Assembly: GCA_022072055.1 (NCBI GenBank)
Contig: JAJVIK010000011.1
Location: forward strand, 62,001-126,000
Reading direction: 5' to 3'
Origin: a bacterium
GTDB lineage: Bacteria > Hinthialibacterota > Hinthialibacteria > OLB16
DNA: 64,000 bases
This document shows, one piece after another, positions 7,723 through 48,627 of the stretch. A model generated the notes under the pieces. It saw only the letters and a list, made by a program, of their open reading frames with translations, did not search any database and was not told the origin of the DNA. A program made the position numbers and the translations under genes. Each line of letters opens with the position of its first letter. Position 1 is the stretch's first letter.

Positions 7723-7882
7723 AACCAACTCCTCCTCCAAAACGGCAGCCCTTCTCTTCGGCATTCGAGCTCCATTCTAACCGACAGGTGGCAAGGTGCG
7801 TCTAGGGGGAAAACCCGGCGAGGTTCTTTCTGTCACACTCCCCTGGGACGTGTTACCATCCGAAGCGAGACCGTTTGAGACC

Positions 7883-18519: not shown

Positions 18520-18585
18520 CGGCTTCGAAGGGACCCCTCAAGAATGGCAAAGGGGAAGCACGGACGCCTCCCCAAACCGAGAGCG

Positions 18586-18614
18586 ACTATAACCAGACCC
18601 TCCCGCCGGGGCAA
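18586..18614 (-). promoter_or_regulatory. trpS: sigma70-like promoter for trpS operon
   Basis: On the minus strand a TTGCCC -35 (18609-18614) is separated by exactly 17 bases from TATAGT (18586-18591), which matches the -10 consensus in five of six positions. It points into trpS, whose ATG is 67 bases downstream. Consensus match and spacing are the only evidence. Confidence 0.5.
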
Positions 18615-18642
18615 GGTTGGACCGGCATCTCCGGTTAAGGGC

Positions 18643-18671
18643 TTCACCCGGACTGAAATCTGAAGGATAGT
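18643..18671 (+). promoter_or_regulatory. candidate promoter for the FAAL-PKS-NRPS operon
   Basis: TTCACC (18643-18648), 17 bases, GATAGT (18666-18671): each hexamer matches the sigma70 consensus in four of six positions. It is the best plus-strand candidate in the 355-base gap between trpS and the FAAL gene, which otherwise contains the short leader ORF (18801-18878), a T7 run (18851-18857) and a weak 5-bp stem (GGGGA/TCCCC) just before it. Weak evidence. Confidence 0.25.
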
Positions 18672-18800
18672 TCCCCCCTGCCTCCAGGCAATGGCGCCCA
18701 AATCCCCCGCCTCCTCTTCATATTCCGGGGCATTTCAGGGAGAATTGGTTCAATGCCGGGCCTGGGGGGAAGGCGCCGGGCCGCCGAAAACGAGGAGAAA

Positions 18801-18878
18801 ATGGGTACCGCAAAGGTGGGGATGATCGGAGTTCCCCGCGCCTTGATCCGTTTTTTTGAGGGTTCCAAATCATCGTGA
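18801..18878 (+). CDS. possible 25-codon leader ORF, overlapping the FAAL start
   Basis: ATG at 18801 has GAGGAG immediately upstream (18792-18797, spacing three bases) and opens a frame of 25 codons beginning MGTAKVGMIGVP and ending in SKSS. Its TGA (18876-18878) overlaps the GTG start of FAAL (18875-18877) as GTGA, the same four-base overlap used by other genes here. The FAAL GTG has no good ribosome site of its own, so translation could be coupled to this leader. It may be a translational-coupling or attenuator-type ORF; a functional peptide is possible but not supported. Chance occurrence cannot be excluded. Confidence 0.35.
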   Translation: MGTAKVGMIGVPRALIRFFEGSKSS

Positions 18879-20683
18879 CAGAGCTTCTGAAATCCCTGCC
18901 GCAACACATCGAGGTCGTCTATGAAGAGCAACCCAGGGTGGAGACCCTGGTGGAATTGTTTCGATGGCGGGGATACCAACACCCCAAACGACTGGCCTTA
19001 TCATTCCTGCTTGAAGGATCGGAGACCGAGGTCACTCACTCCTATGGCGAGCTGGACTTGAGGGCGCGCGCCATCGCCGCGCGGCTTCAGGCGCACGGTA
19101 TGCAGGATAAGCCTGTCCTGATGCTGTTCCCGGCGGGTCTCGACTTTGTGGCCGGCTTCCTGGGTTGCCTCTATGGCGGCGCGGTTGCGATCCCTGCCTA
19201 CCCTCCACACCCGGCGCGGTTGGCCCGAGACCTGCCTCGAATCCGCGCCATCGCGCGGGATGCCCTTCCCGTGGCGGTGCTGACCGTCTCTTCGCTCCTC
19301 GAAAAGCGGGAGGAACTCTGCCGGCAGGCCCCCGAGCTCGGCACGCTCCCTTGGCTGGCCGCCGACAAGATCTCCGTTAATGGGGCAGAGGACTGGCTGG
19401 AAAGAGAGATCGATCCGGATTCTCTGGCCTTCCTCCAATACACTTCCGGGTCCACGGCCTCTCCCAGGGGGGTCATGGTGACTCACGGGAACCTCTTGCA
19501 CAATTCCTCCCTGATTCATGACTACTTCGAGACCGGAGAGGATTGCCGGGGTGTCTTTTGGCTTCCGGCCTACCATGACATGGGGCTGGTTGGCGGCATT
19601 CTCCAAGTCCTTTTTTGCGGAACTTCAGCGCTGCTGATGTCTCCGCTCGCCTTCCTTCAGCGCCCCATGCGGTGGCTGCAGGCGATTTCCAGAACCGGGG
19701 CGAACATCAGCGGGGGCCCGAACTTTGCTTACGACCTTTGTGCGCGCAAGGCCACCCCGGAGCAGATTGCGAGCCTCGATTTAAGCTGCTGGGAACTCGC
19801 CTTCAACGGCGCGGAGCCTGTGCGGGCGGATACCCTGGAGCGGTTCGCCAAGGTTTTTGAGCCATGCGGCTTCCGCTGGGAGGCGTTCTATCCGTGCTAT
19901 GGTCTGGCCGAAGGGACTCTGATTGTGTCCGGTGGAAAGCGCTCCGAGCCGCCGGTCATCCGACGTTTCGACGAGGAGGCGCTCAAGTGTGACCACGCCA
20001 TCGAGGTGGCCCCGGACCACCCCAGCGCGCGCACCTTGGTGGGGTGCGGCGAACCTCACCCCGACCAGGAGGTGGTGATTGTCGATCCGGACACCTCTGA
20101 AAGCCTCCCGGAGGGCCGCATCGGGGAGATCTGGGTGGCCGGGCCGAGCGTGGCGGCGGGCTACTGGAGGAAACCTGAGGAATCCGCCAAGACCTTCCAG
20201 GCCAGTCTGCGAGAGGCCGGGTCAGGACGGCACTTGAGGACGGGGGACCTTGGGTTCCTCAAGGATGGGGAGCTGTTTGTAACCGGGCGTCTCAAGGACC
20301 TGATCGTCCTGGAAGGACGCAACCACTATCCTCAGGATATCGAGCGGACAGTGGAAAGGGCGCATCCGACGCTGCGGGATGATTGCTCGGCGGTGTTCCT
20401 GGCGGAGATTGAGGGTCGCGAACGGCTGGTTGTGGTCGCCGAGGTGGAGCCGCGTTTCACCAAGCCCCGGATTGGAGACAACGGAAACGGACAAGTGTCC
20501 AAAGGGTGGGATGAAGCCGAAGTGGTCCGGATCATCCGTCGAGTCGTTTCCGAGATGCATGACCTTCAGGTCCATTCGGTCGTTCTCATCAAACCGGGGA
20601 GGATCCCCAAGACCTCCAGCGGCAAGATCCAGCGTCACGCCTGCCGCGCCGCCTTCCTGGAAGGAAAACTCGAACGGATTTAG
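18875..20683 (+). CDS. fatty acyl-AMP ligase (FAAL)
   Basis: 602 residues, ANL superfamily. The P-loop-like A3 motif is YTSGSTASPRGVMVTHGNL (from residue 189). WLPAYHDMGLVGG (residues 229-240), the FAAL hallmark HDMGL, is followed by ELAFNGAEPVR and FYPCYGLAEGTLIVSGG, both typical of FAAL rather than acyl-CoA synthetases; the C-terminal lysine block is KTSSGKIQRHACR. FAALs form acyl-adenylates from free fatty acids and transfer them to an ACP phosphopantetheine rather than to CoA. The PKS gene, starting nine bases downstream, begins with an ACP, the expected acceptor. GTG start; no upstream in-frame start was found. Confidence 0.93.
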   Translation: MTELLKSLPQHIEVVYEEQPRVETLVELFRWRGYQHPKRLALSFLLEGSETEVTHSYGELDLRARAIAARLQAHGMQDKPVLMLFPAGLDFVAGFLGCLYGGAVAIPAYPPHPARLARDLPRIRAIARDALPVAVLTVSSLLEKREELCRQAPELGTLPWLAADKISVNGAEDWLEREIDPDSLAFLQYTSGSTASPRGVMVTHGNLLHNSSLIHDYFETGEDCRGVFWLPAYHDMGLVGGILQVLFCGTSALLMSPLAFLQRPMRWLQAISRTGANISGGPNFAYDLCARKATPEQIASLDLSCWELAFNGAEPVRADTLERFAKVFEPCGFRWEAFYPCYGLAEGTLIVSGGKRSEPPVIRRFDEEALKCDHAIEVAPDHPSARTLVGCGEPHPDQEVVIVDPDTSESLPEGRIGEIWVAGPSVAAGYWRKPEESAKTFQASLREAGSGRHLRTGDLGFLKDGELFVTGRLKDLIVLEGRNHYPQDIERTVERAHPTLRDDCSAVFLAEIEGRERLVVVAEVEPRFTKPRIGDNGNGQVSKGWDEAEVVRIIRRVVSEMHDLQVHSVVLIKPGRIPKTSSGKIQRHACRAAFLEGKLERI

Positions 20684-20692
20684 AATGGTGGG

Positions 20693-23600
20693 ATGAGCTG
20701 GGAACCGGATCCATCGGAGTTGAATCCGCCATCCGAACCGTACGCCCGTGGGAACCCCTCACCGCGCGCCCCGCGGCGCCCGACAGCTGCGGAGATTCAG
20801 GACTGGCTGGTGGCCAAGCTCGCCCAGGAGCTCGAGATCGATCCCCGGGATATCGATGCGCGCGAACCATTTTCCACCTATGGGCTGAGCTCGGTCCTCG
20901 CGGTCAGCCTTTCCGGGGACTTGGAAGACTGGCTGGGCCGTCCCCTCTCACCCACACTCGCTTTTGACTATCCCTCGATAGAGGCGCTTGCGGGACACCT
21001 TTCCGGCGAGTCCGATCCCACCACGCGCCAAGATGTAGCCTCGACCGGTTTCCGCGCGGACAAGGAGGCTGTCGCGCTTGTGGGAATCGGGTGTCGCTTT
21101 CCCGGGGCCAATGGCCCCAGGGCCTTCTGGGAGCTCCTATCCGAAGGTCGCGATGCCATCACGGAAGTCCCGCCGGATCGTTGGGACGCCGAGAGTCTCT
21201 ATGATCCCAACCCGGACACACCTGGAAAGATGAACTCCAAATGGGGGGGATTCCTCCAGGGAGTGGATCAGTTCGACGCCCGCTTTTTCGGAATCTCCCC
21301 GAGGGAGGCCGCGCGCATGGACCCGCAGCAGCGACTCCTGCTCGAGGTCGGTTGGGAGGCGCTCGAGGATGCCGGGATCGTGCCCAAGGAGCTTTCCGGC
21401 ACGGCCACCGGGGTCTTCATGGGGGTCAGCACGAACGATTATCTGAGGCTGTTGCTCACCACGGACGAAGGCGCGCACGATGATCCCTATTCCGGAACCG
21501 GCGCCGCCGCCGGGATCGCCTCGGGCCGCCTCTCATACGCCCTCGGCCTTCAGGGACCGACCCTCACCGTGGACACCGCCTGCTCCTCTTCGCTGGTCGC
21601 GGTGCACCTTGCAATCCGAAGCCTCCTCTCGCGCGAGTGCGATACCGCGCTCGCCGGGGGCGTCAATCTGATCCTTGTTCCCGAAAGCACGGTCTATTTT
21701 TCCAAAGTCCGGGCGATGTCGCCGGAAGGTCGCTGCAAAGCCTTTGACGCCTCCGCGGATGGGTATGTCCGTTCGGAAGGCTGCGGCGTGCTGGTCCTCA
21801 AGCGCCTCGCTGACGCGCTAGCTCAAGGCGACCGTGTTTACGCGGTCTTGAGCGGCTCGGCGGTGAATCATGATGGGCGCAGCGGAGGCCTGACAGTCCC
21901 CAACGGTCAGGCCCAGCAGAGAGTCATTCGCGCCGCGCTTGCGGATGCCGGGGTGGATCCGCTCGATGTGGGTTATGTCGAGGCGCACGGGACCGGGACC
22001 TCCCTCGGCGATCCCATCGAGGTCCGCGCACTCGCCTCGGTCCTCTGTGAGAACCGTCACCCCTCGGCGGCGCTGGCCATCGGGTCGGTCAAGACCAACA
22101 TCGGCCATCTGGAGGCCCCTTCCGGAGTGGCGGGATTGATCAAAGTCGCCCTTGCCCTTCAGCACCGAGAAATTCCCCCGCACCTCCACCTCCGCAGACG
22201 GAATCCGCATGTCGAATGGGACCAACTGCCGATTTCCATCCCCACCGAGCGGACTCCGTGGAAGCCAGTGCACGGGAAGCGAATCGCGGGGGTCAGTTCC
22301 TTCGGGTTTAGCGGCGCCAACGCCCATGTGGTGGTTGCGGAGGCCCCAGAGCCTCCCCCTGCCGTTCACGATCCGGCAGCCCAGGCGGAGGCGTTTTTCC
22401 TACCGCTCTCGGCGCGAAGCGAGACCGCGCTGCAGAAAATTGCGGAGCAGTTCCACGATATCTTGTCCCAATCGGAAATCCAGCTCCGGGACATCTGCCA
22501 CACCTGCGCCGCCCGAAGGGAGCACCATGACCACCGCCTCGCGGTTTTCGGAAAGACGCGGGAGGATTTGACTGCGCGCTTGAAGAGCTTCCTCGCGGGA
22601 GAGTCGGAGAGGCAAGGAGTCCGGTCCGGAAAGGTCCCCACCAACCACACTCCGCGGTTAGGATTCCATTTCCCGGATGTTGGCCCCTCCTGGAGTGAGT
22701 TCACAACTTCTCTCCGACACAGCTCCCGTGAGTTTGATGCGGTGGTGTCGCTTGCTAAATCGGAGGCGGGCCGATACGCCAATGTCGCCCCGATCAGCCG
22801 CCGCCATGTCGATCCGCCGGTGGAGGGATTTCCGAACCCCGAGACCGCCTTCTGCGCCTATCAGATCGCGCTGGCCAATCACCTGCGGGCGCATGGGGTG
22901 ATCGTGGAAACTTTCCACGGAGAGGGGCTGGGCCAAATCGCGGCGGACTGTCTGGCCGGGAAGCTCACTCTTCAGGAGGCGATCCGGGTGGCGGCATGCG
23001 GTGAACGTCCCCACATCGAGCCTGGACGCTCCGCCACGCGTGAAACCGATTGGGCGCGCAGTCGCTGTGACCTCTTCGTCCGGATCGGGCCGCGCCAGGA
23101 TTCCCAAGAGGCTCCCCCGCGGGGAAAAGGCGGCAGGTCGAGACCCCTTGAGCTGGATTTCTCCTCGGATCTTCCCAAGGCCGTACCTGCTGATCTGCTT
23201 GCCACATTGTATTGCGCCGGGTTTCCAATCCACTGGAACAGCCTCTGGCCTCACGGGGGCCGGCATGTCGATCTCCCGACCTACCCCTGGGACCACGAGC
23301 GCCACTGGATTGAGCCATCCGGTGATGGATGGTCCGCTCGTTCCCGGGATCCTCGTTTCGGTCGAGCGGTCGAACTCGCCGGATCTCCCGGCTCATTTGT
23401 CTGGGAGGCGGGCCTCGATGGAAGACTCCTGGAGCGGATGGGATTGAACGGCCGCGCGAGGATCAAGGACCTGTCGCCTTCAATGGTCGAGCGGGTGGCG
23501 GAAACCGCCGCTCTTGAAACCCTCAAGCGCGACTTGAGAGTCACCAACCTCCGGCTCACGGGGGAGGCGATTTCTCCACCCTCGGCGGCGGACCCGGTCC

Positions 23601-25774
23601 TCCAAGTGGCGCTATCATCGGTTGAAGGTGGCGCGGGTTTTCGCCTATACAGTCGCTCCACAAACGGCCATCCGGGGGCGGGAATATGGGCCCTCTTGGC
23701 CGAGGGAAACCTGTGCGAGGAAGCCGGCGCCGACGGTACGAGCCACCAGTGGTTCCACGAAGTTGTCTGGGAGCACAAGCCGATTCAGGGGGGGGCCGGA
23801 TTGGACCGGGGACGAGTTTCTCTGGTCTTCTCCGATGATTCTGGGGTGAGCAGCGCGTTTCTGCGTCAACTCGGAACCGCGAACTTGATCCGGGTCCGGC
23901 GCGGCGAAACGTTCCAGCGACCTTCGGAAATGGAGTTTGAGATTTCGCCCTCCGATCCGAGCCACTTTGGTCGTCTACTGGCGGAGGTCCATGCCTCAGG
24001 CGCAAGCCCGGTTCGGGATATCGTGTTTCTCTGGGGTCTCGATCTCCCGGGGTCCGGCGGCGTAAATGCACCCACTTTTGAGAAGTCCTTGGCCGAGCGC
24101 CTGGCCGAGGCTCTCCATTTGATCCAAGCCTGCATACGCGCTGGAACGAAGCAGGCCCCGAGGCTTCGATTCGTGACTCGCGGCGCGGTTCACACCGGGG
24201 TTGCGGAGGACGAGGCGGTAGAACCCGCGCAAGCGGCCTTGATGGGACTCACACGCGCCCTGGCGGGGGAACACCCGGCGCTCTGGGGCGGCCACATCGA
24301 CCTTGATCCCAGCATGAGTCCGGAGCGGACGGCGGCAATTCTCGCACGTGAAATCGACTGCCTCGATGGCGAGGACCGCGTGGCTTTGCGCGGGAGTGAA
24401 CGCCTCGTGGCGCGTTTGATTCCGTGCTCCCTTGGCGAGGAGACTAGCGACTCCGTTGTTCCGCTCGGGAACCGCGTTTGCCTGATCACCGGCGGGATGG
24501 GGGAAATCGGCCGAGAGCTCGCACGTTGGTTTGCGCGACGCGGGGCCAGGCGGATTGTCCTCTTGGGACGAACGCCGGCGCCCGCAAGGGTTGAGTGGAA
24601 TGCCATTCCGGAAGGACACCCCCGGAGGGAACTGGTTGAATCCTTGATGGAGATTGAATCGCATGGCGCGGAGGTTCGCTGTGTGGCGGCGGATGTCGGC
24701 GATATGGCCTCCATGCAACACGCGCTTGAGGAACTTGCGCGCGAGGGGTGGGATAGCTTCGGTGGAGTGGTTCACGCGGCTGGGGTCGCCGATCCCAAAC
24801 CGCTGCTTGAATTGGACCGGGACACCCTGGCGAAAACTCTCCACCCCAAAGTCTCCGGCGCCCTGATCCTCGCGGACCTCCTGAAAAACCACCCACTTGA
24901 GTTCTTCGTTTTGTTCTCGTCCGGCGCGGCGGTCCTAAACTCACCGCTCCTGGGCGCGTACTCGGCGGCGAACTGTTTTCTCGACGCCCTCCCTCAATCC
25001 CTGGGACAAACGGGAATTCGAGCCACCAGCATCGCCTGGGGGTTCTGGAGCGAGGTTGGTCTGGCCGCGCGCTATCGGCGTGAGGGGGGGAGGGGCTTGC
25101 TACCGCGCGGGATGGAACCGATTGAACCGAGCGAAGGGTTACGAATCTTCGGAGGGATTCTCCGGGAGCGCCCAAAGCAGGTTGTGGTCATGCCGATCGA
25201 TTGGCGTGCATGGGGGGATTTCCACCGCCGCGTGGGAGGGAGCGCCCCTCTGCTTGAGAAGGTGTTGGCGGGTGCACGCGCGGAGCGTGGAGGCGACGCT
25301 CAAGAGGGCAGGGAAAGGTCCGGGGCGTTGGAGCGCCTGATGGGCGCGCCCTCCGAACAACGGCGCGCCCTTCTGGAGGATATCCTCGCCGACCAGGTCG
25401 CCGCGATTCTTGGATTCTCCCCCGCGCGCATGGACCGGGCGCAGCCGCTCGACAATTTGGGAATCGACTCCCTGATGGCGGTGGAGCTCAAGAACTGGGC
25501 GGAATCCGAGCTGGGCATCCTGGTTCCGGTCAGCCTGTTCCTGGAGGGACCGAGCCTCACCGATCTGGTCACCCGGCTTCTGCCGGATGTTCTCGCCACG
25601 ATCTCCTCGCGAAGCGGGAATCCTCCAAGGCATCCCTCCGCTCGCCCGAATGAGGAGACGCGAGACATCATCACTCCCGAAAGAGCCGAAAAACTTCTCT
25701 CCGAACTGGATGGTCTTTCGGATGAGGAGGTCGAGCGCCTCCTTGGAAGCCTCGCCTCCCAGCAAGAATCGTAA
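20693..25774 (+). CDS. type I PKS: ACP-KS-(dead AT)-(dead DH)-KR-ACP
   Basis: 1,693 residues. ACP1 (about 25-100): GLSSVLAV, Ser67. KS (about 118-545): Cys297 in DTACSSSLVAV, His432 in EAHGTGTSLGDP and His472 in TNIGHLEA, a full catalytic set. AT-like region (about 655-880): GFHFPDVGPSW replaces the usual FPGQGSQ, and the GHSxGE nucleophile motif reads GEGLGQ (743-748), so Ser is Gly745; the segment from there to FVRIGP is much shortened, while the post-AT motif VDLPTYPWDHERHWIE remains. DH-like region (about 885-1020) lacks HxxxGxxxxP. KR (about 1260-1470): TGGMGEIG, Ser1410, Tyr1423, Asn1427 intact. ACP2: GIDSLMAVEL, Ser1593. Hence chain extension, if any, needs malonyl delivered in trans. 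Confidence 0.93.
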   Translation: MSWEPDPSELNPPSEPYARGNPSPRAPRRPTAAEIQDWLVAKLAQELEIDPRDIDAREPFSTYGLSSVLAVSLSGDLEDWLGRPLSPTLAFDYPSIEALAGHLSGESDPTTRQDVASTGFRADKEAVALVGIGCRFPGANGPRAFWELLSEGRDAITEVPPDRWDAESLYDPNPDTPGKMNSKWGGFLQGVDQFDARFFGISPREAARMDPQQRLLLEVGWEALEDAGIVPKELSGTATGVFMGVSTNDYLRLLLTTDEGAHDDPYSGTGAAAGIASGRLSYALGLQGPTLTVDTACSSSLVAVHLAIRSLLSRECDTALAGGVNLILVPESTVYFSKVRAMSPEGRCKAFDASADGYVRSEGCGVLVLKRLADALAQGDRVYAVLSGSAVNHDGRSGGLTVPNGQAQQRVIRAALADAGVDPLDVGYVEAHGTGTSLGDPIEVRALASVLCENRHPSAALAIGSVKTNIGHLEAPSGVAGLIKVALALQHREIPPHLHLRRRNPHVEWDQLPISIPTERTPWKPVHGKRIAGVSSFGFSGANAHVVVAEAPEPPPAVHDPAAQAEAFFLPLSARSETALQKIAEQFHDILSQSEIQLRDICHTCAARREHHDHRLAVFGKTREDLTARLKSFLAGESERQGVRSGKVPTNHTPRLGFHFPDVGPSWSEFTTSLRHSSREFDAVVSLAKSEAGRYANVAPISRRHVDPPVEGFPNPETAFCAYQIALANHLRAHGVIVETFHGEGLGQIAADCLAGKLTLQEAIRVAACGERPHIEPGRSATRETDWARSRCDLFVRIGPRQDSQEAPPRGKGGRSRPLELDFSSDLPKAVPADLLATLYCAGFPIHWNSLWPHGGRHVDLPTYPWDHERHWIEPSGDGWSARSRDPRFGRAVELAGSPGSFVWEAGLDGRLLERMGLNGRARIKDLSPSMVERVAETAALETLKRDLRVTNLRLTGEAISPPSAADPVLQVALSSVEGGAGFRLYSRSTNGHPGAGIWALLAEGNLCEEAGADGTSHQWFHEVVWEHKPIQGGAGLDRGRVSLVFSDDSGVSSAFLRQLGTANLIRVRRGETFQRPSEMEFEISPSDPSHFGRLLAEVHASGASPVRDIVFLWGLDLPGSGGVNAPTFEKSLAERLAEALHLIQACIRAGTKQAPRLRFVTRGAVHTGVAEDEAVEPAQAALMGLTRALAGEHPALWGGHIDLDPSMSPERTAAILAREIDCLDGEDRVALRGSERLVARLIPCSLGEETSDSVVPLGNRVCLITGGMGEIGRELARWFARRGARRIVLLGRTPAPARVEWNAIPEGHPRRELVESLMEIESHGAEVRCVAADVGDMASMQHALEELAREGWDSFGGVVHAAGVADPKPLLELDRDTLAKTLHPKVSGALILADLLKNHPLEFFVLFSSGAAVLNSPLLGAYSAANCFLDALPQSLGQTGIRATSIAWGFWSEVGLAARYRREGGRGLLPRGMEPIEPSEGLRIFGGILRERPKQVVVMPIDWRAWGDFHRRVGGSAPLLEKVLAGARAERGGDAQEGRERSGALERLMGAPSEQRRALLEDILADQVAAILGFSPARMDRAQPLDNLGIDSLMAVELKNWAESELGILVPVSLFLEGPSLTDLVTRLLPDVLATISSRSGNPPRHPSARPNEETRDIITPERAEKLLSELDGLSDEEVERLLGSLASQQES

Positions 25775-25776
25775 GA

Positions 25777-28700: not shown

Positions 28701-31134
28701 CCCCCTGGCCGCGAACGGAAAGGTGGATCGGAAGGCCCTCCCGATTCCGGACCAAGGCCGCGGTGGGGCCGACACGGCCTATGTGGCTCCCCGAAATGAG
28801 ATCGAACGCGCCTTGGAGGAGATTTGGTCTCGGGTTCTGGGGATCGAGCCGATTGGAGTCCAGGACAATTTCTTCGACCTGGGGGGGGCCTCGATCCAGA
28901 GTCTCGCAGTGGCTTCGCAAGCGAGCGAGGCGGGGATTCCGCTCACCGCGGAAATGATCTTTCAGCATCCGACCATCGCGGAACTCGCGACGGCATCGCG
29001 CGTGGCCAGCCTCGATGCGCATCGCGAGACCCCCGCCCTTCCAAAGCCATCCACGCGCCAGGTTGAGGCGACGGGAACGAGGCAAGCGGCGCGCCCGGGC
29101 TCGCGGGTTTCAACGGGTCGGACCGCGATTGAAAGCTTGGGGGTTTATCTTCCAGCCCGGAAAGTCGCCACGGGGGACCTTTTGCGCGGCTGTCGGAACC
29201 CGATCGATTTCCCGCTGGAGAAAATGACCGGAATCCGCTCGCGTCGCGTGGTGTCCGAAGGGGAGTACTCGATTGACCTTGCCGAACAGGCGGCCCGTGA
29301 CTGCCTGCTTCGGTCACGGAGAAGTCCGGAGGAGATCGACCTCCTGATCTGCTGCAACATCTCGCGGCAGGATGGACCCCGCCAGTTCAGCTTCGAGCCG
29401 ACCACCTCGGTGCGACTCAAGAAACGGCTTGGATTGCCCAACGCCGTCGCGTTTGACATCAGCAATGCCTGCGCGGGGATGTTCACCGGCATCTTGATCG
29501 CCGACTGGTTGCTGGCGGCGGGCGCGATGAGCGCGGTTCTGGTGGTGAGCGGGGAATACATCTCGCATCTTGCCGAGACCGCCCAGAAGGAGATCTCCGG
29601 ATTCCTCGACCCGCGCTTGGCGTGCCTGACCGTGGGGGATGCCGGCGCCGCGGTGATCTTGGAGCGGAACGAGCGCGAGGACATCGGCTTCGCGGACCTC
29701 GATCTCTACACTCTCGGCAAATACAGCGACCTGTGCGTGGCCAAGGCGACCGAGGAGGCGCATGGCGGGGCAATCATGTACACCGATTCGATCCGTCAAA
29801 CCGCCGTGGCCCTTAAACTCTCGGTGGCCCACTCGGCGAAGGTGCTGCGGAGGAGCGGCTGGTCCGCCGAGGAGATCGGTCATGTCATCATGCACCAGAC
29901 CTCGGAGACCGCGCTGCGGGACGCCATGCGGGAGATCAACGCGCTCTATGGCGCGAAGGTCTGTCATGATGGAAACACCGTGATTAACCTCGCCGAGCGC
30001 GGTAACACAGCGAGCACCAGCCACTTTGTGGCGCTGGCGGACCGCATGCGAGCCGGCGAGGTCCGGAATGGCGACCGAGTTGTGTTCGGAATCACCGGAT
30101 CGGGCCAGACCATCGGCTCCTCGCTTTATGTGATGGATGATTTCCCCGCGCGGTTTCTCGAGTCCGGCAACGGGACCCCCTCGGGGAAGCGTGCCGCGGC
30201 TTCGGTCGAGCGGGCCACGCGCGTCTTTTCCACAACCGGAGCAGGCTCGGCGGAGATCCTCGCGGTCGGGCTTGCGAGGGAGCCCAAGGATTCTCCAGGG
30301 GATGCGGTTGAACTTGCGGTCGAGGCGGCCGAATCGGCCCTTATCAGCGCGGGCTTGGATCGCAATCGGGCGGACCTGGTGATCCATTCGGGGGTTTATC
30401 GCAACGATTTTCTCTGCGAGCCGGCCATCGCCTCGATCGTGGCGGGAAGACTCGGGATCAACCACGAGGAGGGTTCCGCACCAGGGCAGTCCACCTTTGC
30501 CTTCGACCTTCTTTGCGGCGGTCTGGGATTCCTTTCCGCCTGTTACGCCGCGACCCAGGCGATTCGCTCAGGCAGAGGGAAGCATGTCTTGATCACCGCT
30601 TCGGAGATCGAAAACAACGCGGGGGTCTTTCCGGAGCGCCTCCGTGGAGTGGTCGAAACCGGCTCAGCGGTTTTGCTTGCGCCCGCCACGGAGAAGCGCG
30701 GCGGATTCCGCGCCTTCGCCTTTCGAGATTTCCCCGATTACGCCGATCTGCTTGTGGCGCACACCGGGCTGGAGGCGGGGAAGACTTACCTCCATTTTGA
30801 GGAGTCGCCATCCTACCCGGCCCGGCTTCGGGAATCGATCTGCATCGTGGTCAAGGATCTGTTGGATCACGAGGGATTGACTCCGTATGAGATCCGGGTC
30901 GTGCTTCCGCCGCTTGTATCCGAGACCTTTGTTTCCGAGCTTGCCGCCGACCTGAAGGTGGACCGGGATCGGATGATCGGCCAACCGACTCCGGGCAAGG
31001 ATGGATTCACCTCGTCCCTTGCGCGAGGTCTCGACGAGGTTCGTCGGAAGGGCCTGGCGGGTTCAGGGGAGATCGGACTGTTCATCGGCGCGGGCGCGGG
31101 CATCCAAGTCGGCTGCGCGCTGTATGTCTTTTAA
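25777..31134 (+). CDS. NRPS C-A-PCP fused to tandem KAS III-like domains
   Basis: 1,785 residues, two bases after the PKS stop. C domain (about 30-460): HHIILDFWS at 162-170, an intact HHxxxD. A domain (about 480-1000): YTSGSTGRPKGV from 641; specificity residues D687 L688 T691 K729 V755 G757 E781 V789 G790 K982 give DLTKVGEVGK, the asparagine pattern. PCP (about 1005-1070): DLGGASIQS, Ser1039. After a linker, KAS III-1 (about 1115-1460) has Cys1232 (SNACAG), His1373 (MHQTS), Asn1410 (RGNTAS), a full FabH-type triad. KAS III-2 (about 1480-1785) has Gly1582 where the catalytic Cys should be (Cys at 1580 instead) and lacks the His and Asn. No thioesterase or reductase ends the protein. Asn use and carbon-carbon release are predictions. 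Confidence 0.92.
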   Translation: MPESQEPTTATPRDKRAQLAELLRERASQAWRDTDLSEGQRALWLLQRLAPDNVAYNLMASAHIRGSLDVGALRRAFQALTDRHESLRTTFPEREGAPLCRIHSSSQVAFVEIEGSSWSEEELRGWMEAQADEPFDLGAGPLFKTILIHRGSRDPVLLVLAHHIILDFWSIDLLLEELRLLHARELGIPVEVPPIAGVFSEYVQWQRGYLGGSEFQTSLDYWEGVIGDCPQILDLPTDRPRPNVQTYRGALHEFDLEISLTARLRELARAEGVTLYTLLLSAFEIFIHRFSGQSEFLVGTPVGGRTRAEFETVVGDFANPICLRADCSGNPSVRELLDRTKPKVLEGLTHQGVPFPRVVERLQPRRDPSRSPLFQVAYVWNRARHLEAGVGEGAARAWSLEPFVHCQRGAPFDLTLSVVDRGAFLSAAFQYNSDLFRSSTAADWAERFRMLLEGILSNPGGRVSELSLLSEGERRFFLVDWNRTEMEYPKDRCVQELIEGRVAESPEACALEWRGGAMSYFELNRMANRLAWRLKELGIGPERLVGICLPRSPEMMIGILAVLKAGGAYLPLDPEYPEERLALMLEDAHAEVVLSTRSLGPKLPTSGRAILPLDDPTLFETGNDAAPPCEAKAENLAYVIYTSGSTGRPKGVMITHRNLMNYLWWCRSAYPLQEGSGAPLHSPIRYDLTVTTLFAPLLSGGRIVLVPERRGVDDLAAVIAEGRDFSFVKVTPAHLKALGAILPKAEASNQTRCLVVGGEALHSDSLAYWREHAPGTLIVNEYGPTEATVGCCVYSLRAGAEISGPVPIGRPIANTRLYVLDVHGQPVPPGVPGELHIGGDSVARGYLNRPDLTAERFVPDPFNRDAGARLYRTGDLVRFRADGELEYLGRSDHQVKVAGQRIELGELETILGGHPEVRDALVAAVETAPGDRRLVAYVVPKSWVDGPSPAELRAFLRQKLPETMLPAFYVTLPGFPLAANGKVDRKALPIPDQGRGGADTAYVAPRNEIERALEEIWSRVLGIEPIGVQDNFFDLGGASIQSLAVASQASEAGIPLTAEMIFQHPTIAELATASRVASLDAHRETPALPKPSTRQVEATGTRQAARPGSRVSTGRTAIESLGVYLPARKVATGDLLRGCRNPIDFPLEKMTGIRSRRVVSEGEYSIDLAEQAARDCLLRSRRSPEEIDLLICCNISRQDGPRQFSFEPTTSVRLKKRLGLPNAVAFDISNACAGMFTGILIADWLLAAGAMSAVLVVSGEYISHLAETAQKEISGFLDPRLACLTVGDAGAAVILERNEREDIGFADLDLYTLGKYSDLCVAKATEEAHGGAIMYTDSIRQTAVALKLSVAHSAKVLRRSGWSAEEIGHVIMHQTSETALRDAMREINALYGAKVCHDGNTVINLAERGNTASTSHFVALADRMRAGEVRNGDRVVFGITGSGQTIGSSLYVMDDFPARFLESGNGTPSGKRAAASVERATRVFSTTGAGSAEILAVGLAREPKDSPGDAVELAVEAAESALISAGLDRNRADLVIHSGVYRNDFLCEPAIASIVAGRLGINHEEGSAPGQSTFAFDLLCGGLGFLSACYAATQAIRSGRGKHVLITASEIENNAGVFPERLRGVVETGSAVLLAPATEKRGGFRAFAFRDFPDYADLLVAHTGLEAGKTYLHFEESPSYPARLRESICIVVKDLLDHEGLTPYEIRVVLPPLVSETFVSELAADLKVDRDRMIGQPTPGKDGFTSSLARGLDEVRRKGLAGSGEIGLFIGAGAGIQVGCALYVF

Positions 31135-31142
31135 CACCGCCT

Positions 31143-32132
31143 ATGCGAGCCTTTGTGACTGGGGCAACGGGTTTCCTGGGATCGAATCTCGCGGTGGGCT
31201 TGGTGGAGCGAGGGATAGAGGTTCGCATTCTTCGGCGTCCGACCGGCGGCGCCGAGGCGCTGCAAGGAGCGCGGATCGAGGAGACCACCGGGGACATCCT
31301 CGATCCTCCGGAGAAACTTGCCAGGAGCATGGAGGGTTGCGAATGGGTTTTCCATGTGGCGGCCTCGGTGAAGTACGGAAGGAGTCCGAGGGAGCTTTAC
31401 CGGACCAATGTGGAGGGAACAGCCCATGTGGCGGAGGCCGGGCTTCTCGCCGGAGTTGGGCGGTTTGTGCTGACCAGTTCCCTGAGCGCGATGGGGGTTG
31501 CCGAGGGGGGCCGACTGCTGGATGAGGACTCAGAATTCAGCCTAAGCCCCAGCGAATTCCCCTACGGCCACACGAAACGCCTGGCCGAGGATGAGGTTCG
31601 AAAGCGGATTGATAGGGGGTTGTCCGCGGTAATTGTCAACCCATCCACGATGTTCGGTCCCCGAGATGTCCGCCGCAACGCCGGGGCGATGGTCATTCAG
31701 GCGGCCTCCGGCACCTTGAGGTTTTACCCTCAGGGCGGCTCGAATTTCGTGGCTGTGGAGGATGTCGTGTGGGGTCACATCGCGGCGGCGGAGAGGGGAA
31801 GGGTGGGACAGCGATACATCTTGGGGAATCGGAACCTGACCTACCGGGAGGTTTTTGAGCGAATTTGCGAGGTGGTCGGGGTTCCTCCGCCTCGCTGGCC
31901 GATCCCCAACGCGATCCTCCCGGTTGGGGCGTGGGGCGCGCAGCTGCTGTCGTGGATTCGTCCGGGACTGCTTCCGGTCGATCCCAACCAAATTCGGATG
32001 TCCGCGCGCTGCATTTACGCGACCTCCGAGAGGGCGATCCGAGAGCTCGGACTGCCGCAATCCCCATTGGAGGGGGCGATCCGTCGCGCCCACGAGTGGT
32101 ATCAACAGAACGGCTATTTGAGGAAATCATGA
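31143..32132 (+). CDS. NAD(P)-dependent extended SDR, OleD/3-beta-HSD-like
   Basis: 329 residues. Rossmann motif TGATGFLG near the N-terminus, an active-site Ser in LTSSLSAMG, and the YxxxK pair Tyr141/Lys145 (YGHTKRLAED). The C-terminal half (NPSTMFGPRD, FVAVEDVVWGHIAAAERG, GQRYILGNRNLTYREVFERI) matches the 3-beta-hydroxysteroid dehydrogenase/OleD type of extended SDRs, which reduce long-chain beta-ketones, rather than sugar epimerases. Lying eight bases after the NRPS/KAS III gene, its natural substrate may be a ketone made by the KAS III domain, as OleD follows OleA in olefin synthesis; inference. Confidence 0.85.
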   Translation: MRAFVTGATGFLGSNLAVGLVERGIEVRILRRPTGGAEALQGARIEETTGDILDPPEKLARSMEGCEWVFHVAASVKYGRSPRELYRTNVEGTAHVAEAGLLAGVGRFVLTSSLSAMGVAEGGRLLDEDSEFSLSPSEFPYGHTKRLAEDEVRKRIDRGLSAVIVNPSTMFGPRDVRRNAGAMVIQAASGTLRFYPQGGSNFVAVEDVVWGHIAAAERGRVGQRYILGNRNLTYREVFERICEVVGVPPPRWPIPNAILPVGAWGAQLLSWIRPGLLPVDPNQIRMSARCIYATSERAIRELGLPQSPLEGAIRRAHEWYQQNGYLRKS

Positions 32133-33790
32133 ACCGATTGGCAACCGCGCTCTTGTTTTTTGCCGTGAATCTCCCCGTTGCAGCTCAGGCCACCGAGCTT
32201 GGGGTCTCGAATGGCGCGATCAAGGCGATGACCGCCACCATCGATGGCCCCTACGACCCAACCGGGACTAACCGCTGGCGACTCGGGGTCGGTGCGCATC
32301 TCCGGATTCGGGATCGGACTCAAGATTCCAGTGAGAGCCTAAAGGTCGTCGAGGCGCCGGTGGATGTGCAGTGCGGCGCGGGAGGGATCCTGTACGCCAG
32401 CGGCGGTTTTGTGATCGACATCACCAGGGCCGGCGGGGTTCGCTACCGCTTTCCCAGGAACCACCCGAGCTTCAGCCAGAACGCCGGGGTCCCCAACCCG
32501 AGCCGCATGGTCTTCTCGAAATCCCAGCCCCCCGAAAAGGCCGCGGGCAACTGGGTGGCCCTCTTGGGAGATCAGGTCCTGATCCGCGGGATGGCCAGCG
32601 CGCAGGCCATACACCCGGCCACCCCGGAGGGGCTGGAGACACTGGTTTCGGTGAGCGGTTACACCTCCGAAAGCCGTGTTCTTTCCGACCTCAGGACCCT
32701 GCTCCAATTTGATGGAAACCCATTCCCGTTCTGGCGCGCGGCCCGCGCCGACCTGGACAGCGAGGAGCGCGCGGTCAAAGGGTTGGTCATCCCGGAGGAT
32801 CGCGTGGGCGCGGAAGCGTATCGAGCCTACCAGGTCGAAACATTGGCGGGGCTGTCCAAGATTCGCGAAGGCTATCGCATGCTCCAGCGCAACCTCTATA
32901 GCGACAAGGTCCTCGATAAGATGGTAACCGAGGGGGTCCCGATTCCACGACTGACCCTGGCCGAAGTGAGCTTTGTCCGGGGTGACATGGCCTTTTCCAT
33001 CCGGCCATTTGTGAACTGGAAGTTGGAAGGACGGGTCCTTGTGGACCGTTCGCGATTGGTGGCGAGCGAGCCTCGGAAGCGGGAGGTGGCCCCGACCGTG
33101 TTCGTGGTGGATGACCTGACCAACCGCATGTTGGAAGACACCCGGATCGTGATCGGATCGCGGGATGCGGTCATCGAGAGTCGGCGCCCGGGAAACACCG
33201 CCTGGACAGCGCGCGCCCCGATCCAGTTTGATTTCGATTGGGAGCGTTTTTTCACCCCCTCGGCGGAGGTCTTCGGGTTTTCCGAGCAGCTCGACGCGAC
33301 AGGCTTCCTCTTGCGGCGGGAGATCTCCGGTGGAGGAGTTTTGGAGATGAGCGAGCTGTTCCTCTCCAAGACCCTGCTTGAACTACGTTATCTTCCGCGC
33401 TCCGATAGGAAACCCGCCGAGGAGCAGATTCGGAAGTACATGGACCTGCGTCGAACGATCCTTTACCCGGATCGGAGGGAGCGCTTGGCTCTCCTTCCGA
33501 CTCGTTTTCGCGAAGGGCAAGTCTCCGAATTTCTCAGCGATGGCCTGGACCATCTGGCCGCCGCAATCCATGCTCAAGGGATGAAGGAAGTGGTCGGCCT
33601 GAACCTGTGGGTCCGCAACGATCCTCCCAAGCAGTGGACCCTGGAGATGGAGGCAATCGGCCCGGCCGGGGAGCGAGTGATGGTTTCTCGCGCGGCGGAG
33701 CTCCCCGATGCGCCCCCGCTGGAGGACTCCTGGAAGAAGCTGGATCGCAACCGCGCCATCACCGGATGGCTTGACCTCGAATGGGAGTGA
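32129..33790 (+). CDS. exported protein of unknown function in the lipopeptide-type operon
   Basis: 553 residues; ATG overlaps the SDR stop (ATGA). Signal peptide MNRLATALLFFAVNLPVAAQ. The rest has no recognised domain or transmembrane helix; the secondary-structure impression is beta-rich N- and C-terminal parts with helical stretches in between (about residues 230-300). The last third has RRTILYPDRRERLALLPTRF. Being translated with the ABC exporter, it might be a periplasmic partner or carrier of the exported product, but there are no HlyD/LolA/lipobox features to support that. Function unknown. Confidence 0.8.
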   Translation: MNRLATALLFFAVNLPVAAQATELGVSNGAIKAMTATIDGPYDPTGTNRWRLGVGAHLRIRDRTQDSSESLKVVEAPVDVQCGAGGILYASGGFVIDITRAGGVRYRFPRNHPSFSQNAGVPNPSRMVFSKSQPPEKAAGNWVALLGDQVLIRGMASAQAIHPATPEGLETLVSVSGYTSESRVLSDLRTLLQFDGNPFPFWRAARADLDSEERAVKGLVIPEDRVGAEAYRAYQVETLAGLSKIREGYRMLQRNLYSDKVLDKMVTEGVPIPRLTLAEVSFVRGDMAFSIRPFVNWKLEGRVLVDRSRLVASEPRKREVAPTVFVVDDLTNRMLEDTRIVIGSRDAVIESRRPGNTAWTARAPIQFDFDWERFFTPSAEVFGFSEQLDATGFLLRREISGGGVLEMSELFLSKTLLELRYLPRSDRKPAEEQIRKYMDLRRTILYPDRRERLALLPTRFREGQVSEFLSDGLDHLAAAIHAQGMKEVVGLNLWVRNDPPKQWTLEMEAIGPAGERVMVSRAAELPDAPPLEDSWKKLDRNRAITGWLDLEWE

Positions 33791-33797
33791 GACCAAC

Positions 33798-34508
33798 TTG
33801 AGTTCCGAACCGAAGGCTCCGGAAACCCCCACGATTATTTCGCTGGAGGGGGTTCACAAGTCCTATCGCAACGGTGGGCAATCGATTGAAATCCTGCGTG
33901 ACCTTTCGCTACAGATCGCGCGCGGGGAGGCGGTGGCCATTCGAGGCGTGTCCGGCTCCGGAAAATCAACGCTCCTCAATGTGGTTGGGGCCATCGACTC
34001 GGTGGACTCCGGCACGGTGACCGTGCGCGGAAAGCGTCTGGATGGAGCAAGCTCCGCGGACCTCACCGCCTTTCGCGCGAGCGAGGTGGGGTTTATCTTC
34101 CAGTTCTACAATCTGCTCCCCACGCTCACAGTCCGGGAGAATGTGGCGGTTGGGTTGGAGGCCGCTGGGGTTTCCCTCTCGGCGGGCCGAGCCAAGGTTG
34201 CGGAGTACCTCGAGGCGGTCGGCCTCTCCGACAAGGCGCGGAAATTTCCCGAACAGCTCTCCGGCGGCGAGCAGCAGCGGGTCGCCATCGCGCGCGCGTT
34301 GGTCAAAGAGCCGCCGCTGGTCCTCGCCGATGAACCGACCGGAAGCCTGGATGAAGAGACCGGGGTTCGGATTCTCGAACTCCTCAATCACCTCCAGCGC
34401 GAACTCCATCTCAGTTTTCTCCTGGTCACCCACAATCCCGCGATCTCGGATTACACCGACCGGACCCTGTTCCTCCACAACGGTCGTTTGTCGTCCGATC
34501 CCTCCTGA
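33798..34508 (+). CDS. ABC transporter ATP-binding protein (LolD/MacB type)
   Basis: About 236 residues. Walker [10 protein letters not shown] (Lys56), Q-loop in [17 protein letters not shown], signature [15 protein letters not shown] (about 153), Walker [14 protein letters not shown] (about 174) and the switch histidine in LLVTHNP. The sequence is of the LolD/MacB/FtsE branch that drives FtsX-type permeases. The start is TTG at 33798; no ATG gives a shorter N-terminus, and a longer in-frame start at 33708 overlaps the previous gene. It is eight bases from each neighbour and pairs with the next gene. Confidence 0.95.
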
Positions 34509-34516
34509 TTTTCGAC

Positions 34517-36874
34517 ATGAAACTCCTCCTCGCGCATGTTTGGCGGAGCGCGCTCCGCATTCGGTTCCGACTGCTCGCGGTCAGTCTCGTGGCCGCCTGC
34601 GGGTTCGGCATCTATGTGGGGGTCTATTCGGCCATCGAGAGCGTGATCCTCGAACAGCGGCGACAGTTCCGCGAGGGGAATATCGCCGACCTGGATGTGC
34701 GTTTCGCGCCGGAAGACCAGACCCTCCTTCCGGACTTTTCGGATATCGAGGGGATTGAACAGGTCGAGCCGCGCCTCGTGTATCCGGGGAGGATTTCGCT
34801 CGCCGAGGGGGAATCGCTCACTTCCCTGTTGGTCACTGTTGATCCCGGGGTTGGGGGCCGAATCAACAAGGTCACCCTCCTGGAGGGCAAGGCGCTCGAT
34901 TCCGCCGATCCGGAAGGAGTCCTCATCGACCGTAATCTGGCCCGTTATCATGGTTTCAAGGTGGGCGACCGTTTCGAGCTCCTGATGGCGGATGAAGTCT
35001 ACTCCCTCCACATTGTGGGAATCGGGGTCAGCCCGGAGTTCCTGATGGCCCCGGCCAATCCGAAGGTGTTTATCCCGGCCAAGGGGTCGCTGGGGATCCT
35101 CTTCGCGCATCCCGCGCTGATCGAGGCGCGAGTCGGCATCCCGATGGTCAACAGCCTCTTATTCAAGTTCCGAGGGGGTGGCGACGGAAGGGAGATCCAA
35201 CGCGCGGTTGTGGAGCGCGTGGAAGGGGCGCTGGCCTACGATGTGGCCCTGCCGCTCTCCGAGCAGTTCGGATTCCGCTTCCTCGACCTGAACATCAAGG
35301 CGTTCAAAATCTTTCTCCCTTCGCTGGTCGTGGTGTTTGACCTCACCGCGTTCCTCGTGACCTTCTTCTTGAGCTTTCAGTGGATCGAACAGGAGCGGCA
35401 GCAGATCGGGGCGCTGATGGCGCTGGGCTATCCGAAGCGGAAGATCGCGGGAGCCTATCTTTTCGCGACCCTGATCATTGCCGCGGTCGCGCTCCTGGCC
35501 GGATTCGTCTTGGCGCACTTCACCGCGCGGAATTTCGCGGTTCATTTCGCGGGTTCGCTCGGATTTCCCGCGCCGGATGTGGTCCTCGACATCGGGCATG
35601 CCCGCAAGGGGGTGTTCGGCCTGATTTTGGTTCTGGCTATGGCGAGCGCCTGGCCGCAAGCCTGGCTCCTGAGGCTCTCGCCACTTGAGGCGGTGCGCGA
35701 CACCGGGCGGTCCCTGGAGGGGCGGATCGGTTCGTTCGGCGCGCTGATTTCCGCCCTCCCCGGACCGGTCTGGTTCCGCTATGGGGTTCGGAACCTGATC
35801 CGGAACAGGGCCCTCTCGCTGTTCACCGCCGCGGCGGTGGGCATGGGCCTTGGGGTGACTGTTTCGTTCTTTATCGCGCTCACTTCAAGCTCCCAGACCT
35901 CGATTCGTTGGACTGCCAAGGACCCCTGGCAGGGACTGGTGGATTTCTTTGCCCCAGTGGGGATCCGGGAACTCGATGACTTCCGAGCCATCCCCGGCGT
36001 GAAGGATGTGGCCCCTTACGCCAAACAGGCAGGGGTGATCGTGGGACCCAAGGGGGACGGTAACATCTACATGCTCGGCATTCCTCCCGGAGAAGGGTTG
36101 CGGAATCCGCAGATCCTCGAAGGAAGGACCCTGGAGCGTGGCGATACGGATCAGGTGATTGTCGAGAAGAACCTGGCCGAGAAGCTGGGCATCGCCCTGA
36201 ACGGCCGGGCCACGATTCAGGTTCTGGGGCGCCGCAAAGAGGTCACAGTGGTGGGGCTGCTTTCGGGCGCGCTCCCGGGGGAGTGCTATGTTCCGCTCGC
36301 CCTCGCCCAGGAGGTGACCGATAGTTCCGGGACTTGTTCGGGGATGTTCTTGCTCACGGATGGGGATCCCGAGGCGGTCAGGAGGGCCCTCTACGCCAAA
36401 GGCAACATCTCCCAGGTGACCCTCAAGACCGAGATCGTGGAGCAAATCCTTTCAACCACGGGTGAGAAATGGGTCATTCTGCGCCTGGGTTCTCTGTTTT
36501 CCATTGGGATCGCGATCCTGTTCATGTTTTGCAGCGTGTCGTTCACCATCCTGCACCGCAAGCCGGAGTATCTGATGCTGCGAATCATCGGGTTCTCGAA
36601 CCGGATTGTGGCGGGGACAGTCCTCGCGGAGGTGGTGGTCCTGGGGCTGGGGTCGGTGGCGCTGGCGATTCCCATCGGGGTCGGGACCGCGACCTTTCTG
36701 ACCGCGCGGATGTCGGAGGCGTGGTTCACCGTGGAGGTTCTCGCCGAGGCCCCGGATTTCCTCAAGGTTCTGATTCCCGGATTCTTCCTGATGCCCTTCG
36801 CGGCGGTCTCGGCGATTCGGGGAATCCTCCGCGAACCGCTGGAGAAGAGCCTGAGGGAGAGGCGGTGCGGGTGA
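34517..36874 (+). CDS. ABC transporter permease with two FtsX domains
   Basis: 785 residues with an N-terminal helix (LRIRFRLLAVSLVAACGFGI), a periplasmic MacB-like domain (about 40-250), then FtsX helices (about 265-400, with QQIGALMALGYPKRKIAGAY as cytoplasmic loop), a second N-terminal-like helix and periplasmic part (about 415-640), and a final FtsX block (about 655-775, KPEYLMLRIIGFSNRIVAGT). This duplicated layout means one polypeptide can serve as the whole permease for the neighbouring ATPase. Relatives export lipoproteins, lipids, glycolipids or peptides; here the candidate cargo is the product of the upstream assembly line. Confidence 0.9.
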   Translation: MKLLLAHVWRSALRIRFRLLAVSLVAACGFGIYVGVYSAIESVILEQRRQFREGNIADLDVRFAPEDQTLLPDFSDIEGIEQVEPRLVYPGRISLAEGESLTSLLVTVDPGVGGRINKVTLLEGKALDSADPEGVLIDRNLARYHGFKVGDRFELLMADEVYSLHIVGIGVSPEFLMAPANPKVFIPAKGSLGILFAHPALIEARVGIPMVNSLLFKFRGGGDGREIQRAVVERVEGALAYDVALPLSEQFGFRFLDLNIKAFKIFLPSLVVVFDLTAFLVTFFLSFQWIEQERQQIGALMALGYPKRKIAGAYLFATLIIAAVALLAGFVLAHFTARNFAVHFAGSLGFPAPDVVLDIGHARKGVFGLILVLAMASAWPQAWLLRLSPLEAVRDTGRSLEGRIGSFGALISALPGPVWFRYGVRNLIRNRALSLFTAAAVGMGLGVTVSFFIALTSSSQTSIRWTAKDPWQGLVDFFAPVGIRELDDFRAIPGVKDVAPYAKQAGVIVGPKGDGNIYMLGIPPGEGLRNPQILEGRTLERGDTDQVIVEKNLAEKLGIALNGRATIQVLGRRKEVTVVGLLSGALPGECYVPLALAQEVTDSSGTCSGMFLLTDGDPEAVRRALYAKGNISQVTLKTEIVEQILSTTGEKWVILRLGSLFSIGIAILFMFCSVSFTILHRKPEYLMLRIIGFSNRIVAGTVLAEVVVLGLGSVALAIPIGVGTATFLTARMSEAWFTVEVLAEAPDFLKVLIPGFFLMPFAAVSAIRGILREPLEKSLRERRCG

Positions 36875-36961
36875 GAATCGAAGCACCAGTCGCACCAAGC
36901 TTCAGTCTCCTCGTGACGCGACCAGTGGCCTCCCTGAACCACGAGAACTCAGCGAAAGGAA

Positions 36962-36993
36962 GAGGCCGGAGACCCGCTGGGGCTTCCGGCCTC
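36962..36993. terminator. intrinsic hairpin between ABC permease and fba (bidirectional)
   Basis: A perfect 9-bp inverted repeat, GAGGCCGGA (36962-36970) and TCCGGCCTC (36985-36993), with a 14-base loop, lies between convergent genes. On the minus strand it is followed by TTCCTTTC, a modest T-rich tract, fitting an fba terminator; on the plus strand it lies 88 bases after the operon stop. Confidence 0.6.
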
Positions 36994-37019
36994 GAAATCA
37001 GACTCCCGGACAGATGCGT

Positions 37020-46589: not shown

Positions 46590-46659
46590 GATGACATTTC
46601 GGGGACAATCTCCCCACCCCTCTCGCCGTTTGAAAAACTGATTGGAAAAAAGGAAGAAA

Positions 46660-48615: not shown

Positions 48616-48627
48616 GCGAGGAGACCC

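Follow-up and report, generated by a model that had tools for sequence, protein, structure and literature searches.

A Hinthialibacteria operon predicted to end a FAAL-PKS-NRPS line in a fused LstAB-type pair of KAS III domains

Results

We analysed a stretch of 64,000 nucleotides (hereafter the window) from a bacterium of the class Hinthialibacteria (assembly GCA_022072055.1, contig JAJVIK010000011.1, positions 62,001 to 126,000), in which seven genes at positions 18875–36874 form an apparent operon. It begins with a fatty acyl-AMP ligase (FAAL), continues with a polyketide synthase (PKS) and a nonribosomal peptide synthetase (NRPS) module, and the NRPS protein ends in two domains related to beta-ketoacyl-ACP synthase III (KAS III), termed K1 and K2. 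We estimate a probability of about 70% that the operon encodes a FAAL-PKS-NRPS line ending in an OleA-like, heterodimeric KAS III of the LstAB type and working by the route proposed below. As judged from sequence, K1–K2 is most likely a fused LstAB-type enzyme that would perform a non-decarboxylative Claisen condensation, standing in for the missing thioesterase.

K1 and K2 are predicted to form one condensing enzyme

The first-pass annotation of this DNA had described two FabH-like domains at the end of the NRPS. Both are indeed KAS III-like, but K2 is a pseudo-enzyme and the pair is better regarded as a single enzyme of the LstAB/OleA type. K1 keeps the catalytic Cys, His and Asn as well as a Glu-Pro dipeptide in all 82 homologs compared. 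In K2 the catalytic Cys is present in 0 of 79 sequences, its position holding Ala, Ser or Gly and, in a single sequence, Asn. The catalytic His is lost as well, the Asn position holds Asp in 76 of 79, and a Glu-Pro-Ala motif is invariant (79/79). HMMER aligned the K2 Glu-Pro with that of OleA (3fk5), where FabH has Phe-Pro or Tyr-Pro. In OleA, Glu117 of this dipeptide is contributed by the other subunit and serves as general base, and the Claisen condensation depends on it (PMC7064751).

The closest parallel is found in lipstatin biosynthesis. LstA and LstB are neighbouring KAS III-like proteins that are active only as a heterodimer and take 3-hydroxyacyl-CoA as substrate; LstA Cys128 and His271 and LstB Glu60 are required for activity, LstA Asn305 for a soluble complex, and such cassettes are widespread (PMC12141560). 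In relatives of the operon whose K1 and K2 are not fused, the corresponding residues lie at Cys120–127, His260–268 and Asn295–302 of K1 and at Glu59–61 of K2, an agreement that was sought after the review had been read and for which positions were counted from the raw sequences. An adjacent KAS III-like pair, an intact triad in the first subunit and, in the second, a Glu near residue 60 without the triad were thus all found, the Glu being predicted to be essential. Because this residue anatomy matches that reported for LstA and LstB, K1–K2 is most likely of the LstAB type. The Glu117-Pro signature of OleA is also present. OleA, however, is a homodimer in which both subunits hold an active site; since K2 lacks Cys, His and Asn, the pair is OleA-like rather than OleA. 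Together, these comparisons support the view that K1–K2 is one enzyme made of an active and a pseudo subunit.

An AlphaFold model of K1–K2 (pLDDT 89.6, pTM 0.93) was confident, including the relative placement of the two domains, and Foldseek matched it to FabH, PqsD, OleA and PqsBC. PqsBC, from the Pseudomonas quinolone pathway, likewise consists of an active and an inactive KAS III-like subunit. Two other identities were rejected: two independent condensing KAS III domains are ruled out by the absence of the triad from every K2, and a housekeeping FabH by the score of K1 against TIGR00747 (121 bits, cut-off 292) and by a separate FabH-like gene on contig C5 of the same genome.

Several observations weigh against the LstAB-type assignment. 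K1 keeps its own Glu-Pro, which should be dispensable if the base comes from K2, and its FabH triad fits malonyl-dependent, decarboxylative chemistry equally well. The comparison with LstAB was made through the residue numbers of the review (PMC12141560). Among NCBIfam models, the short-chain dehydrogenase/reductase (SDR) encoded directly downstream matches HpnA (276 bits, under the cut-off) much better than OleD (92 bits). Finally, the ring of the lipstatin end product is not predicted, because no OleC-like match reaches the cut-off: the best match to an OleC/LstC beta-lactone synthetase in the genome scored 88 bits (cut-off 900) and none lies in the operon. A beta-lactone end product of the operon was rejected on the same grounds.

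If K1–K2 were instead a FabH-like enzyme using malonyl-ACP, K2 would be structural only and the acyl-asparagine would undergo a decarboxylative two-carbon extension. The product would resemble a statine or tetramate and be reduced by the SDR. The Cys-His-Asn triad of K1 and its best sequence matches in the PDB, which are FabH enzymes, favour this chemistry. We nevertheless consider it improbable: K1 and K2 both carry the OleA-type Glu-Pro in place of the Phe/Tyr-Pro of FabH, the Glu of K2 is kept without exception though its site is lost, and Ole-type genes adjoin K1–K2 in Bacteroidota.

FAAL, PKS and NRPS domains upstream of K1

Gene 1 combines a FAAL-type AMP-binding domain with a DIP2-like C-terminus, matches FAAL models and is followed by an acyl carrier protein (ACP) domain, in keeping with the earlier placement of a FAAL at the head of the line; transfer of the adenylate to this ACP is predicted from the domain content. 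The acyltransferase (AT) of the PKS is dead, as had been suspected: GHSxG occurs nowhere in the protein and GEGLG stands in its place, so that this is not a cis-AT module. The AT is also degenerate (GQGSG) in a genome of the same family but a sister genus (G001); most relatives belonging to other phyla have an intact one with GHSxG. Outside the operon, the genome has a single intact AT, encoded by a 331-aa frame of its own on contig C1, and this AT could load the carrier in trans. The dehydratase (DH), also held to be dead, is truncated and without its catalytic motif; the ketoreductase (KR) looks intact.

In the NRPS module, the condensation (C) domain carries an HHxxxDF-type motif shared across most relatives. 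The adenylation (A) domain code reads DLTKVGEVG(K), the code for Asn, as in the first reading. The code differs among relatives: of those that could be assigned, DPWHFSLID/DVWHISLID in mycobacteria, Nocardia and Ktedonobacteria is Ser-like, and DILQLG(L/M)IW in loci L030, L054 and L102 is Gly-like. No thioesterase was found in the operon, as noted before, and a thioesterase motif was seen in none of the NRPS-fused relatives.

Proposed route to a two-chain aminolipid

In the proposed route, FAAL would adenylate a fatty acid and load it onto the first ACP. The ketosynthase (KS) would add one malonyl unit, supplied in trans since the AT is dead, and the KR would give a 3-hydroxyacyl-ACP. The C domain would use this chain to amidate the asparaginyl-loaded peptidyl carrier domain (PCP), and the resulting N-(3-hydroxyacyl)-Asn would be transferred to Cys1232 of K1. 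Across the K1–K2 pseudo-dimer, Glu1548 of K2 would deprotonate a second acyl thioester at its alpha carbon, and a non-decarboxylative Claisen bond would release a 2-alkyl-3-oxo-4-(acylamino) acid. The adjoining SDR may reduce the ketone either ahead of CO2 loss or following it: with the carboxylate kept, a 2-alkyl-3-hydroxy acid is expected; with it lost, a ketone, followed by an amino alcohol resembling ceramide. Export of the two-chain lipid may fall to the ABC/FtsX pair. For the condensation step the basis is residue conservation and gene context. We infer the sequence of steps and a two-chain aminolipid as product, along with the single extension round, the identity of the second acyl chain, the fate of the carboxylate and export. 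Of the earlier proposal that an acyl-Asn is extended or dimerised by a Claisen step, the Claisen release is retained and dimerisation is not, because LstAB/OleA-type homology predicts joining to a second acyl thioester.

A different order of events, of the lipstatin/esterastin kind, would have K1–K2 join a 3-hydroxyacyl chain to a second chain, the NRPS later adding Asn as an ester on the hydroxyl, like Leu in lipstatin. In its favour, LstAB takes 3-hydroxyacyl-CoA, the PKS with its KR would make a 3-hydroxyacyl chain here, and esterastin bears an acylated Asn. This order is nonetheless very unlikely: C-A-PCP lies directly upstream of K1–K2 in one chain, fusions of FAAL, carrier and K1–K2 in relatives suggest that the preceding carrier feeds K1, the operon holds no formyl- or acetyltransferase, and the genome has no match at the level of OleC.

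A bolder extension of the proposed route, which seems to us possible though rather unlikely, is that these loci make ceramide-like lipids in reverse. A carrier-bound amino acid would be N-acylated, its carboxyl joined to a second chain by the fused LstAB-type enzyme, and the product decarboxylated and reduced to two-chain amino-alcohol lipids without serine palmitoyltransferase; the amino acid would be Ser in mycobacteria and Nocardia, Gly in some Chloroflexota, Planctomycetota and Bacteroidota, and Asn here.

Distribution and gene neighbourhoods of K1–K2

A search for tandem K1–K2 found this genome alone among 14 of its phylum and few matches among 386 sampled genomes. A GTDB scan then ruled out that the architecture is private to one genome. 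It confirmed 402 stretches, and the locus counts given here rest on the best 80 of these, which were picked by likeness to the window, so that the frequencies are not representative of the whole family. K1 and K2 were fused to each other in 74 of the 80 loci and fused to an A domain, as a C-A-PCP-K1-K2 protein, in 42 from at least three phyla; FAAL, KS, C, K1 and K2 occurred together in 32. The combination, which the first reading had not recognised, is therefore a recurrent one. The fused C-A-PCP-K1-K2 protein was found in Mycobacterium, Mycolicibacter, Mycolicibacterium, Nocardia, Chloroflexota and Planctomycetota. Stand-alone K1–K2 proteins next to PKS and NRPS genes occur in Bacteroidota and Rhodopirellula, with a FAAL too in Bacteroidota, and separate adjoining K1 and K2 genes were seen in unrelated genomes (G019, G306, G385 and G338; loci L105–L107 and L109). 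In a quick tree the sequences grouped largely by phylum, the window standing on its own branch in an unsure position.

Two kinds of relative bear on the function of the pair. In three Bacteroidota loci (L059:4109-11995, L089:5613-11998 and L102:8880-18587) K1–K2 has genes resembling OleB, OleC and OleD as neighbours, and no OleA or further KAS III was found in these loci. The OleC-like synthetase scored 630 bits in L059 and 515 bits in L102, both under the curated cut-off, and the OleD-like reductase of L059 scored 416 bits; the genes of L089 were identified from their positions and their resemblance to those of L059. These loci are possibly olefin or beta-lactone pathways in which K1–K2 replaces OleA. 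In Planctomycetota, FAAL, carrier and K1–K2 are found in a single protein without PKS or NRPS (L070:3875-9019, L074:6956-12019). Independently of each other, the two arrangements suggest that a carrier-bound acyl chain passes to K1 and that the product enters an Ole-type reduction. HpnA/OleD-type SDRs recur next to the pair in relatives, and the gene right after K2 in Mycolicibacter encodes an SDR of this type with about 50% identity.

Other neighbourhoods were also noted. In Saprospiraceae/Lewinella (L076–L078, L082, L084), the genes after K1–K2 encode a fatty acid hydroxylase, a protein lacking any match, a GH3-family enzyme and two SDRs whose type also gives a score against 3-ketodihydrosphingosine reductase. 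The separate K1 and K2 genes of Deltaproteobacteria (L104, L107) have in their vicinity an enzyme resembling thiamine-diphosphate lyases, a zinc alcohol dehydrogenase and an SDR of HpnA/OleD-like type. An unfused K1–K2 in G385 (L027:8734-10699) sits, as judged by eye, amid universal-stress-protein-like and hydrogenase-subunit-like proteins, a setting unlike the biosynthetic one.

Comparison with known systems

The condensing pair is of an already known kind, that of LstAB in Streptomyces toxytricini, with its adjacent KAS III-like subunits, one holding Cys-His-Asn and the other the essential Glu. Unlike LstA and LstB, K1 and K2 share one chain with an NRPS module, the predicted donor is an aminoacyl-PCP thioester rather than 3-hydroxyacyl-CoA, and no beta-lactone synthetase is present. 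OleA of olefin and beta-lactone pathways shares the Glu-Pro signature of the dimer-crossing base and the OleBCD-type neighbours seen in three Bacteroidota relatives, but is a homodimer with two active sites, whereas here one subunit is a pseudo-enzyme. PqsBC, which resembles the K1–K2 model in structure, is encoded by separate genes and acts on other substrates without NRPS or FAAL. FAAL-initiated lipopeptide lines such as those of puwainaphycin and jamaicamide load an ACP, extend by PKS and add an amino acid by NRPS in the same manner, but use other release modes.

A 2025 review of FAAL enzymes mentions neither KAS, FabH, Claisen nor lipstatin (PMC11837247). A keyword search of open-access papers for NRPS-KAS III fusions with FAAL returned only AFC-BC11 of Burkholderia, a FAAL-using pathway in which the KAS III-like AfcL releases a lipopeptide intermediate (PMC12186527). 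This precedent makes it conceivable that K1–K2 is an acyltransferase release module of the CerJ/ChlB3/AfcL type, handing acyl-Asn on to a nucleophilic O, S or N atom to give an ester or amide. The triad of AfcL, which forms an amide, is Cys/His/Asp, whereas K1 has Asn throughout; moreover, the AFC-BC11 enzymes are stand-alone and a K1/K2 pair with conserved Glu-Pro is not described there (PMC12186527), so that we hold out little prospect for such a release module.

The fusion of an LstAB-type pair to an NRPS module within FAAL-PKS-NRPS lines was not found in this open-access literature, nor was a described product for such a machine. If the LstAB-type reading is right, an OleA/LstAB-type carbon–carbon condensation would take the place of a thioesterase at the end of an NRPS line, a kind of release of which no description was found in the literature searched, and it would span non-tuberculous mycobacteria, Nocardia, planctomycetes, Chloroflexota and Bacteroidota. 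It would also predict that cultured strains make two-chain aminolipids of a class not yet seen, which can therefore be tested directly. The residue signature (Cys-His-Asn in K1, Glu-Pro-Ala without the triad in K2) can annotate genes now labelled as generic KAS III.

Operon layout and genome setting

All seven open reading frames were found intact and closely packed on the forward strand (Table 1), as the first-pass annotation had described, and Pfam and NCBIfam matches confirmed its domain order. The contig measures 652,862 bases in a genome of 5.86 Mb that is 96.6% complete. The SDR stop and the ATG of the exported-protein gene overlap as ATGA, and starts and overlaps fit a single transcript. 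The ABC ATPase probably starts at a TTG (33771 or 33798); the ATG at 33708 would give an 83-base overlap. The closing hairpin was also recovered, with no T run after it. Promoter and terminator scans gave results no better than shuffles, as did folding of the hairpin region as a whole, though the hairpin itself is a clear inverted repeat. No Rfam family was found within 18000–38000 of the window.

Table 1. Predicted features of the operon (positions in the window).
Feature	Position	Strand	Basis or remarks
FAAL, gene 1	18875-20683	+	Pfam AMP-binding and DIP2-like C-terminal domain; NCBIfam FAAL models
PKS, gene 2	20693-25774	+	Pfam/NCBIfam
First ACP (PKS)	20801-21001	+	Pfam/NCBIfam
KS (PKS)	21065-22600	+	Pfam/NCBIfam
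Degenerate AT (PKS)	22613-23302	+	GEGLG instead of GHSxG
Truncated DH and psiKR (PKS), between AT and KR		+	Pfam/NCBIfam
KR (PKS)	24479-25054	+	Pfam/NCBIfam
Second ACP (PKS)	25364-25558	+	Pfam/NCBIfam
NRPS C-A-PCP-K1-K2, gene 3	25777-31134	+	Pfam/NCBIfam
C domain	25882-27201	+	Pfam PF00668; HHIILDF motif
A domain	27277-28740	+	Code DLTKVGEVG(K)
PCP	28810-28992	+	Pfam PF00550
K1, catalytic KAS III	29110-30153	+	Cys1232, His1373, Asn1410; Glu1207-Pro
K2, pseudo-KAS III	30244-31131	+	Catalytic Cys and His absent, mostly Asp in place of Asn; Glu1548-Pro-Ala retained
Putative beta-keto reductase, an extended SDR related to HpnA/OleD	31143-32132	+	NCBIfam
Exported protein with signal peptide, family without a name	32129-33790	+	No Pfam/NCBIfam match
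ABC transporter ATPase, LolD/MacB/DevA type	33798-34508 (start codon uncertain)	+	NCBIfam
FtsX-type ABC permease, two FtsX domains	34517-36874	+	Pfam
Hairpin after last gene	36962-36993	.	14-nt arms 36962-36975 / 36980-36993, 86% complementary

G001 carries the same operon divided over two contig ends. One holds the FAAL (61% identical), the PKS and the start of the NRPS (C domain); on the other lie the last part of the SDR (61%) and the gene for the exported protein (48%). The operon is therefore not an assembly artefact, and with its reading frames intact an assembly or frame error is ruled out. K1–K2 was not found in G001 and presumably lies in the stretch missing between the two contigs. 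In G001 the exported-protein gene is not followed by those for the ABC ATPase and FtsX; the exporter had been counted as part of the operon, and its genes do stand there, but since the pair is not conserved in G001 its link to the pathway is weaker than the operon suggests. ABC/FtsX genes recur beside relatives in other phyla.

Homologs of the exported protein were found only in the same-family genomes G001 and G002 (30% in the latter), and its AlphaFold model, built from a three-sequence alignment, was uninformative (pLDDT 50). In G002 the protein occurs without the operon in the stretch read. Elsewhere in the window, planctomycete-type cytochrome/PSD and DUF1501 genes lie at 3883-7764 (-), 14568-15968 (-) and 46642-49890 (+).

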